In this document: piece by piece, positions 32,178-35,492 of the stretch
Layout of the letters: each line of letters begins with the position of its first letter
Numbering within the stretch: the first letter of the stretch is position 1
NCBI GenBank assembly: GCA_007115995.1
Contig: SKJI01000033.1
Location: 1 to 45,221, forward strand
Direction: 5' to 3'
Length of the DNA stretch: 45,221 bases
From: a candidate division SR1 bacterium
GTDB taxonomy: Bacteria > Patescibacteriota > Gracilibacteria > Absconditabacterales > Absconditicoccaceae
Translations under genes and position numbers: made by a program
Notes under the pieces: generated by a model
What the model saw: the letters and a program-made list of their open reading frames with translations, nothing else
Database searches by the model: none
Told to the model about the DNA's origin: nothing

Positions 32178-33245
32178 CTACTCAAGCAAATCTGCCCAGA
32201 TGATAGTGTGAGCAGAGGTGAAGTCACCGTTCTGTAATGATGATGGTTTTTTGTATCACTGATACTGATCGATAATTGCGGTATATGCTTGTATTGTTGG
32301 CTGATCTGTTTGTAGGATTTTGTAGTCATTATATTGCTCAACATACCGATCTGCGTTAATTTCTTGATGATTTCATCATGTATACGGTAGTGGTACGATT
32401 ATTTTCTTAACACCAAACCAGTGCAATTCTGCGAGTGTCGTTGCAGATCAGCGTGTACAAGCAAGATCAGCGAGTTGATAAAGATACGCTAATTGTTTTT
32501 GTTGTAAGAAATCAAACGTCCAGATGTTATTCTGATGCACAAAACGCTCGGCTTGTTGTTTATTTTTGAGACCCAAAACAACAAGAAACTGCATTAAAGG
32601 ATATTTTACGCACAATTGCTCTACAATCGTGAGAAGGTAATTAGATCATTGCGATCATCAAATAACTATCAGTGTTGTTCGTTGTTGATCAAAATTTGGA
32701 AGTTCGATCGGTGTGGGATTGCGTAGTGTGTGTGAAAGTATCTGCCCAACAACACGTTCATTTGGAAATGTTCATGGAAATCAACTGTATCTCTTCCAAG
32801 CCAATGTTCAGACGAGCTTGTTGGTTAATCCAATATGCGTATCTGACTCATGAACGAGAATCGGAATACCAAGCATTTTTGCAGCAAACGATACAGGAAG
32901 TGCGACGTATCATCACTTACAAAATACCTTCTGTATCTTATACTTTTTTAGATACCACAGAGACTGAAAAAATCATCAGATAACTTTAACCATATCAGCA
33001 ACGTTTTTGAAAAACGCATCTCAATCCCAGTATCTCCTCAATTTACCACTTGCAACAGGAATAAAATGGACTGCAGGAAATTGACGAGCAATATCACTCT
33101 CTAAAGAGTTATATGAACCAAATCGGTACAACTTGCATTTAGTTGTCATTTCATTATCCTGTTGTGCGTATTCAAGCAGTGCTGTAATAGGAAAAACATG
33201 TCATCATGTTCATCATCCTGTAAAGCAAATCGCATAGTGTTCCAT
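32178..33245 (-). CDS. murG: UDP-N-acetylglucosamine--MurNAc-(pentapeptide) pyrophosphoryl-undecaprenol GlcNAc transferase
   Basis: A 355-residue GT28 enzyme that makes lipid II at the inner face of the membrane. N-terminal FTGGGTGGHVFPI (four of the glycines TGA-encoded) is the lipid-phosphate loop; FCKGGYVALPVSFAAKMLGIPILVHESD is typical for MurG; a second glycine loop VIGGSQGS opens the UDP-binding half; LACTRGSATTLAE and VPLPYTGGNHQEINAD are the donor-sugar residues. The ATG at 33245 gives the normal MurG start; an open stretch upstream has no better start. The gene is convergent with radA. Confidence 0.94.
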
Positions 33246-33373
33246 TGCTTGTATCAAAAGAGTATTAAATAAACGCCATAAACAATACTCAACACCGTAC
33301 CAAAAGCAAATTGATTATCGACAGATATCATCGTACGGTATCATATGGACGTTCTATCATACACATCAGTAAT

Positions 33374-33450
33374 GGTTGATTAGCTCAGTTGGCGAGAGCG
33401 CCACATTGACATTGTGGAGGTCACTGGTTCAAGTCCAGTATCGACCACCA
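33374..33450 (+). tRNA. tRNA-Val (anticodon GAC)
   Basis: A 77-base tRNA. Acceptor GGTTGAT pairs with ATCGACC (one G-T), anticodon stem CCACA/TGTGG with loop TTGACAT gives GAC at 33408-33410. CCA is encoded. The probable foreign methyltransferase gene lies right downstream on the opposite strand. Confidence 0.96.
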
Positions 33451-33460
33451 TCTACTCTAT

Positions 33461-33485
33461 AAACTGCCTCATGGTAGTTTTTTTG
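33461..33485 (+). terminator. Terminator of tRNA-Val
   Basis: AAACTGCC, loop TCAT, GGTAGTTT followed by a T-run, starting ten bases after the tRNA CCA. Confidence 0.75.
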
Positions 33486-33498
33486 TTTATTGAGGGAT

Positions 33499-33530
33499 AA
33501 AAAAATCCCAATAGAAAACACTATTGGGAT
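33499..33530 (-). terminator. Terminator of the TGA-free methyltransferase gene
   Basis: A perfect 10-base stem ATCCCAATAG/CTATTGGGAT with a six-base loop; on the minus strand it runs into six T. It lies eight bases past the stop and belongs to that gene. Confidence 0.85.
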
Positions 33531-33537
33531 CCAAATA

Positions 33538-34548
33538 CTACACTTTGACTAATGTTACAAAGTCATCATGTAATATTTTTTCTTTTGGTGGTTGATTATG
33601 CAACCAACCCGCAAGATTGGTTGCATAAATCACCCCATTTTCTTTTACTACTCTTTGACATTCGTCATAGTCAATACAATAATTTCTGACTGCAACGATT
33701 ATATCAAAGGTATTGTTTTTAAAAGGAAAGGTGTCAGTTGAATCACAAACTGTATATTCAACAGGAGTTCTTCTTTTTATTCCAAATAATTTTGGAATAC
33801 ACTCATATACCCTCTCTATCCATTTCGAAACGAATAACGAAGGAATATGATTGTCAGAAACGACAATTTTCCCCTTTCCTCCCAAAAATTTTTTATATCT
33901 TATGTGATGAGGAACTGCCCCCCCACCTAAGATTAAAACTTTTTCACCACTATTGAGTTTACGATATTTTTTTACTTTATCGTACTCTAAGAAAGCAAGT
34001 TGCACGGGATTAAAAAAGAATGGCCACAATATAGTAAAATATATTGTGGTTATGCCCTGATCTAAACTAAAAAAGATTTTATCAATAACTTTGTCTTTTT
34101 GTAGATTTTTCGTTTCAAAAAAATTTAAAGATAAAGTTTTTACTGATAAAAACTTTAATAATTGGTCAAATCCAAACCCTTTTTCATTAGTATCATCAAC
34201 CTCTATTTTTTTATTATTAAAAAAATAAAGGTTTGAATCTTTTGGGTTAAAATAACAATACTTATAATTTCTATTCTTTTCTATCAAAGAAGAAAAGAAC
34301 CGACTATAAATATTGTTTCGTGTCTGTATACCAAATATTGTCATTGGTATGACAAACATGATGTTTCCCATTAAAAAGACAACAAGAAATCCTTCTACAA
34401 AACCTTCTACAAAACTTTCCGAAGCGATACCTGTCATCAAACCAAATATCGGAGAAAAGATTAAGAAAAGTAATGATAAAGAATTTCTCGATTCAATTTC
34501 TTGAAGAAATTCAATTCTAACCACTTCATGTGGTTTTAATTCAGACAT
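33538..34548 (-). CDS. Membrane-anchored SAM methyltransferase without any TGA codon (probable recent transfer)
   Basis: A 336-residue protein. Two N-terminal membrane helices (SLLFLIFSPIFGLMTGIA and FLVVFLMGNIMFVIPMTIFG), a middle part of unknown type, then a Rossmann methyltransferase-like domain: GEKVLILGGGAVPHHI, GKIVVSDNHIP, and FPFKNNTFDIIVAVRNYCIDY. About 22 glycines are all coded GGN; there is not one in-frame TGA, in contrast to every neighbour of similar size. This is expected for a gene from a standard-code donor. ATG 34548 was chosen; upstream in-frame starts (ATG near 34596, TTG 34629) exist. It sits beside tRNA-Val and carries its own terminator. Substrate unknown. Confidence 0.85.
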   Translation of the reverse strand: MSELKPHEVVRIEFLQEIESRNSLSLLFLIFSPIFGLMTGIASESFVEGFVEGFLVVFLMGNIMFVIPMTIFGIQTRNNIYSRFFSSLIEKNRNYKYCYFNPKDSNLYFFNNKKIEVDDTNEKGFGFDQLLKFLSVKTLSLNFFETKNLQKDKVIDKIFFSLDQGITTIYFTILWPFFFNPVQLAFLEYDKVKKYRKLNSGEKVLILGGGAVPHHIRYKKFLGGKGKIVVSDNHIPSLFVSKWIERVYECIPKLFGIKRRTPVEYTVCDSTDTFPFKNNTFDIIVAVRNYCIDYDECQRVVKENGVIYATNLAGWLHNQPPKEKILHDDFVTLVKV

Positions 34549-34715
34549 GTTTATTTTTTCTGTCTGAATTATAGATGTTGATGTTAATGACCTCATACTA
34601 GTAATTTTTATTTTTTTGCAATAACGCAAATTATTTATAAATATTATTAAAAAAAAGTCAATACTTCATTATACCACTTTTACACCCACACCCTCTTTAC
34701 TTTACACAATGAGTT

Positions 34716-34764
34716 CTTTACAGTAATTTTTCCTTTTATTTAAAAGAAAAAATGGACTGTAAAG
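34716..34764 (+). promoter_or_regulatory. Long hairpin over the comF start region
   Basis: CTTTACAGT (34716-34724) pairs with ACTGTAAAG (34756-34764), and the A/T-rich inner arms also pair nearly throughout (CCTTTTA with TAAAAG). The putative comF ATG at 34752 lies in the 3' arm, so the structure could hide the start or mark that the real start is further in. Confidence 0.5.
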
Positions 34765-35492
34765 CATTGGACACTGTAAAGTGTCAAAAAACTGTACAAC
34801 AAGGTGTCAAAAAACTGTACAAACAGCTGATAAATACTCTCTTTCCGCCACTTTGTTGTCACTGTCAAACTCGTGAGTGAGTGTACGTCTGTCCAGTGTG
34901 TTTAGAAACAGTATTTTCTTACCCAGATGTGTGTTTTTATTGTAGAAATAGATCGTGATCACAAAACGTTTGTGAAGAGTGCGTCTCAATTCTTGATAGA
35001 ATTATTGTTTGTTTTTCTTATAGATGAGCAATAAAATCAGCTATTAAAGCACTCAAATATAAAGATTATAAAGCGATCATACAGCCACTTATCCAAAAAG
35101 CACTCCGATCTCAACCACTCGATCAGTACGATTCAAGTAATACCGTTATCACCTACATTCCTATGCATCGACGAAAACAATATCGAAAAAGATGATACAA
35201 CCAGGGATCGCTCTTAGCAAAAGAGCTTAGCAAGCAGACATGACTTCCATGTGTAAACCTTTGTAAAAAGATCAAACTAACCAAAAGTCAGACAAAATTT
35301 AGCAGAAATAAAAGAAAAATGAATGTGTACAACACCTTTACACTGTCAAAAAGTTTAGCTAATCATATTAAACACGTTATTATCGTTGATGATATCGTTA
35401 CAACATGATCAACGCTTTCCACAGTTGCTTGATTGCTAAAAAAACATTACTCACTTACATCAGTAGTATGATACTGCCTTGCAAGACAATAA
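34752..35492 (+). CDS. comF: ComF-like phosphoribosyltransferase-fold protein
   Basis: A 246-residue protein with the ComF pattern: N-terminal Cys motifs (FPPLCCHCQTR, CPVCLE, CFYCRN, VCEEC) that probably bind zinc, then YRGAIKSAIKALKYKDY, YIPMHRRKQYRKRGYNQGSLLAKEL, and the PRPP loop HVIIVDDIVTTGST. ComF helps ssDNA uptake in naturally competent bacteria. The start is uncertain: ATG 34752 is inside a hairpin and its first ~20 residues are unlike the family; TTG 34767 is the other option. Both are in frame, and the family part begins about residue 24 (KLYKQLINTLFPP). Confidence 0.85.

Follow-up and report, generated by a model that had tools for sequence, protein, structure and literature searches.

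A TGA-free methyltransferase-like gene beside tRNA-Val in a code-25 Gracilibacterium, probably imported from a standard-code organism

Genomes with a reassigned stop codon are often regarded as closed to foreign genes. Among the closest described systems, phages compatible with code 11 were predicted for Gracilibacteria/Absconditabacteria, with backup stops (PMC10746230), and the ATP citrate lyase of a BD1-5 genome was proposed to have been laterally transferred (PMC6851277). The locus reported here lies in the window, a stretch of 45,221 nucleotides that is contig 16 of a draft genome (G000; 1.005 Mb, 50 contigs, estimated contamination 1.88%). Its gene shares with the code-11-compatible phages the lack of in-frame TGA, which makes it readable under both codes; however, it is one gene in a chromosome, unaccompanied by phage genes, and no viral homologue was found. 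With horizontally acquired genes in recoded bacteria, such as the BD1-5 ATP citrate lyase, it shares the patchy occurrence of an apparently foreign gene in a recoded genome, although the basis here is the missing recoded codon and the gene order and not a tree leading to a named donor. The locus also resembles tRNA-associated integration hotspots in its variable gap by tRNA-Val and in the displaced tRNA-Val 3' fragments of two relatives (G006 and G027), whereas in the window itself neither a repeat nor an integrase nor a displaced piece of the tRNA is present.

The host reads TGA as glycine (code 25): in the 793 genes predicted with a simple ORF scorer, TGA accounts for 12,689 of the 18,623 glycine codons (0.681). 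A tRNA with anticodon UCA was found in the genome, and the sole prfB match, which reached 235 bits against a family cut-off of 370, is presumably the paralogue prfA. The earlier note had pointed to an ORF of 336 codons at 33538-34548 without in-frame TGA, and we found it as described; it lies on the minus strand, starts with ATG and ends in TAG. Its glycines were counted as 19, not the claimed 22 or so, and all of them are GGN codons (six GGA, seven GGT, five GGG, and one GGC). The heavy use of TGA by the neighbours was borne out by the genome-wide share and by the native genes on both flanks, a murG-type glycosyltransferase on the left (32178-33257, minus strand, 19 TGA) and a comF-type phosphoribosyltransferase on the right (34752-35492, plus strand, 8 TGA). 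TGA is used by all other predicted genes of the window that have a similar number of glycines.

The chance of such a gene was calculated from the glycine counts per gene, as the earlier note had proposed. For 19 glycines, the probability of zero TGA is 3.6e-10 under a binomial model. Since the TGA share differs from gene to gene, a beta-binomial was also fitted to the TGA-using genes, and the probability that allows for this between-gene variation is 1.0e-6. By chance, the whole host genome was expected to contain about 0.003 genes that have 12 or more glycines but no TGA, and 3 of 596 were observed, namely the 33538-34548 gene and two neighbouring genes elsewhere (L034:141-962 and L034:1217-3277). 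Native TGA-free genes of this size, named beforehand as possible counter-evidence, are thereby reduced to these two, and both look like imports. The absence of TGA from the 33538-34548 gene is not due to chance.

The left edge of the slot that holds the gene is an intact tRNA-Val (GAC) at 33374-33450 on the plus strand; no second tRNA-Val with this anticodon was found in the genome. A terminator-like hairpin lies just downstream of the tRNA (33461-33480, plus strand), and the insert lies beyond this hairpin. The intrinsic terminator of the gene itself, a 12-bp stem followed by a T tract (33503-33532, minus strand), converges on the terminator of tRNA-Val; the earlier note had correctly recognized both this terminator and the adjoining tRNA. 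Upstream of the gene, a possible sigma-70-type promoter was picked out by eye at 34634-34661 on the minus strand (TTGACT-16-TATAAA); it escaped the consensus scan because its -10 hexamer ends in a base other than T. The hairpin-rich spacer is present, with an inverted repeat (34716-34731/34749-34764) and a tandem 23-mer (34778-34823), but it shows no resemblance to an attachment site, and no convincing additional copy of it was seen as a repeated genomic element.

The same locus was compared among relatives. In G006, from another genus, murG (minus strand), tRNA-Val GAC (plus strand), and comF (plus strand) are arranged without the gene, and the gap between tRNA and comF is about 230 bp. The murG and comF genes are divergent neighbours in G005, G010, and G004 as well, 74, 156, and 512 bp apart between their matched parts, with no tRNA. 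The order murG/tRNA-Val/comF recurs in G027 with another gene, a NAGPA-type phosphodiester glycosidase containing 7 TGA. As the neighbourhood occurs in relatives without the gene, the gene is an insertion into a variable slot. The gene order in G006, G005, G010, and G004 assigns the inserted cassette to the interval 33481-34751, whose ends are approximate because the nearest relatives with an empty site are too divergent for setting them exactly. A fragment of a standard-code contaminant joined into the metagenome-assembled genome (MAG) could look similar, given the draft state of the assembly and its estimated contamination, yet this explanation is highly improbable, since native TGA-rich genes flank the gene on both sides and a TGA-free homologue likewise lies within native sequence of an independent MAG.

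Integration at tRNA-Val, as the earlier note had envisaged, found no counterpart in the window. Even when 3 mismatches were allowed, no second copy of the tRNA-Val 3' end was found in the window, the sequence downstream of tRNA-Val aligned locally to the tRNA with a best similarity within the shuffle range, and direct repeats searched around the locus were absent. No integrase, transposase or repeat adjoins the gene; the insert is one gene flanked by murG and comF. In two relatives, a partial tRNA-Val was observed just downstream of the intact copy (G027, L192:2070-2220; G006, L193 near 1680-1893), with alignment scores of 44 in G006 and 32 in G027, where shuffled sequences reached at most 23 and 25. 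These displaced fragments may record integrations or duplications of the tRNA. As the window holds no tRNA fragment or repeat, integration at tRNA-Val is not shown for the gene studied here.

The only relative found is a 332-aa protein from a different genus of the family (G014, JAIPIU010000003.1), which matches over nearly its full length with 43% identity. TGA encodes none of its 22 glycines, and all of them are GGN. The pair has 9 glycine positions in common and 23 unshared, with TGA in 0 of the 41 codons. At 139 identical residues, the same codon is used at only 72; the synonymous sites are mixed while the protein is kept, which indicates purifying selection and a real gene. Among the 49 family genomes, the gene was found in 2, which carry it at different loci. 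No other homologues were found among the 353 genomes of the class that were searched, in 366 genomes of three other classes (295, 55, and 16), or, beyond the gene's own match, in a phylum-wide sample of 380 genomes. A collection of contigs from 84,980 species returned only G014. The pattern-based scans depend on nearly exact matches of short peptides, and distant donors would escape them. Viral contigs and phages contained no relative, and the window protein had no match in PHROGs. The donor search that the earlier note had called for thus led only to a copy that is itself in a code-25 genome, and the genome, viral, phage, and plasmid searches, which were not exhaustive, yielded no standard-code homologue or donor. 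A placement of the protein among code-25 relatives had been named as evidence against import; the G014 copy formally gives such a placement, but this copy is also TGA-free, and so the comparison does not discriminate.

Vertical inheritance within the code-25 family would be an alternative, with TGA kept out by selection, for instance for translation when the TGA-reading tRNA-Gly is scarce. The comparison with G014, which covers a sampled third of that genome (420 kb), gave 103 reciprocal-best pairs with G000 at a median identity of 41%. The 43% identity of the methyltransferase-like pair is close to this median of presumed orthologues and is what vertical descent would give; together with the location of both copies in code-25 genomes it speaks against import, and identity alone therefore does not exclude vertical descent. 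Codon usage points the same way, because the synonymous usage of the gene outside glycine is native-like (rank 207 of 474). However, vertical descent requires that none of the 23 unshared glycines is TGA, that 47 of 49 family genomes lack the gene, and that the two carriers have it at different loci. Moreover, only 1 of the 103 reciprocal-best pairs has a TGA-free member, the methyltransferase-like pair, and the other 102 have none in either genome. Other genes that diverged to that distance inside the code-25 family picked up TGA, and this pair did not. We therefore consider vertical inheritance unlikely.

An import from a standard-code organism, as the earlier note had proposed, is well supported by the TGA deficit, the TGA-free homologue, the patchy distribution, and the gene order at the empty locus. 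Its description as recent is partly sustained: none of the glycine codons has so far turned into TGA, but the remaining synonymous usage is ordinary for the genome, and atypical codon usage outside glycine was not found as a second line of evidence. The GC content of the gene, 29.6%, corresponds to the 10th percentile of the genes in the genome, and native-like codon usage would equally be expected if the donor were AT-rich and similar in composition. The most probable reading is that a self-contained cassette from a lineage with TGA as stop entered a code-25 Gracilibacterium and was inserted there in the gap that separates tRNA-Val from comF. Since no standard-code homologue was found, the donor is an inference; we also infer its code, the number of transfers, the vehicle, and the activity and substrate of the enzyme. 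The G014 copy, at another locus and in another genus, would most simply be explained by a second import, from an unsampled standard-code gene lineage common to both copies.

The vehicle could also explain the missing codon. A mobile cassette, or cargo of a phage or plasmid shuttling between standard-code and code-25 hosts, might be TGA-free in order to be read in both, and TGA-free phages are predicted to infect both Gracilibacteria and standard-code hosts (PMC10746230). The variability of the slot, which holds another gene and tRNA-Val fragments in relatives, also speaks for this. Nevertheless, integrated prophages of such hosts were all found to be TGA-rich (PMC10746230), the gene has no integrase, transposase or repeat next to it, and its viral, phage or plasmid relatives amount to one partial, non-significant plasmid match (E 0.7). 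Mobile cargo of this kind is accordingly a doubtful explanation. In a related scenario, to which we give little credence, the gene would belong to a 'bilingual' family circulating between standard-code and code-25 bacteria and permanently free of TGA for readability in both codes; if true, the family would include the methyltransferase and many of the TGA-free genes of G014.

Judged from profile matches and motifs, the gene probably encodes a class I SAM-dependent methyltransferase with a membrane anchor. Hydropathy places two N-terminal transmembrane helices at about residues 22-76 of the 336-aa protein and a further hydrophobic segment near residues 155-190, and the class I SAM-methyltransferase-like domain is assigned to the C-terminal part, about residues 200-325, from a weak match to Methyltransf_11 and a profile match to 8k76. 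Both homologues resemble class I SAM methyltransferases (Methyltransf_11/UbiE-like; PDB 8k76) through independent weak profile matches in the C-terminal, SAM-binding half, although the Pfam-type matches all lie under the curated cut-offs in both copies. For the window protein, Methyltransf_11 gave an E-value of 0.0078 and 17.3 bits against the curated cut-off of 21.2, and for the G014 homologue an E-value of 0.004, also under the cut-off. The profile built from the two sequences matched the solved SAM-dependent methyltransferase 8k76 with an E-value of 5.7e-4. SAM-binding motifs, defined as a Gly-rich loop after strand 1, an acidic end of strand 2, and the post-I and motif IV region, are ordered and conserved in both copies (VLILGGGAVP, SDN, and CDSTDTFPF..FDIIVAVRNY). 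AlphaFold2 on the two sequences reached pLDDT values of only 39 and 41. The two-helix N-terminal membrane segment, together with the motifs NPxQLAFLEYDKxKKY and PHHIRYK, fits no described family. As a guess, the substrate could be membrane-associated.

TGA-free genes were also counted beyond the locus. Of the 240 genes with 12 or more glycines in the 420 kb of G014, 17 are TGA-free, none has a TGA share between 0 and 10%, and one falls at 10-20%. The TGA-free genes stand as singles or in runs of two to three among TGA-rich genes, and because they form such islands of one to three, a lack of TGA seems to mark cross-code transfer cleanly. The set includes purC, purB, purM-like, glutamate-synthase-domain, and FabH-like proteins, the first four at L119:5676-6635, L127:4155-5495, L132:16808-17998, and L138:6088-7701, respectively. 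This suggests that purine-pathway genes of G014 were imported from a standard-code organism. Samples of 100 kb from four other family genomes contained 0 to 5 TGA-free genes. The TGA share of glycine ranges from 0.30 to 0.77 across code-25 genomes of this one family (G005, G008, G012, and G026; samples L139-L158), and in G008, G026, and G012 the TGA-free mark is weaker because TGA encodes only about 30% of the glycines.

In the host genome, contig 25 carries two adjoining TGA-free genes at L034:141-3277, one of them PEP-synthase-like, with 45 GGN glycines, and the pair is probably a second import. The nearest relatives of the PEP-synthase-like gene are in G063, from another family of the class (70% identity, no TGA), and in G024, from the same family (69%, 7 TGA); homologues elsewhere in the family reach at most 41%. 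This pattern fits import and also shows that related genes can acquire TGA. On contig 26, a beta-eliminating-lyase-like gene (L035:2401-3423) has TGA at 3 of 22 glycines and is possibly an older import in transition. Near the G014 homologue, the TGAs of L008:5508-6065 are confined to the last 20-odd codons, and the first of them may be the original stop of the donor, now read as glycine. As a general signature, fossil TGA stops at gene ends were represented by scattered candidates only.

A standard-code gene has no in-frame TGA and needs no repair in a code-25 cell, and with a TAA or TAG stop, here TAG, it is translated correctly at once. Having no TGA and a TAG stop, the cassette would have been readable on arrival; it carries its own terminator and probably its own promoter. 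A GGN codon can become TGA by a single step only from GGA, through a G-to-T change, as GGT, GGC, and GGG need two changes. Since only GGA is one step from TGA, a young import would stay TGA-free and the mark would fade slowly.

In a limited literature search, we found no description of TGA-free genes as an import marker, or of a census of such genes, in code-25 bacteria. The absence of TGA can mark genes transferred between genetic codes. The code barrier would then be open inwards, where a standard-code gene with a TAA or TAG stop works at once, and the missing TGA would flag the gene as foreign almost digitally, as in 17 of 240 genes of G014 against 3 of 596 in the host. The gene flow across codes, and the time that imports take to gain TGA, would thereby become countable in each genome, without trees.
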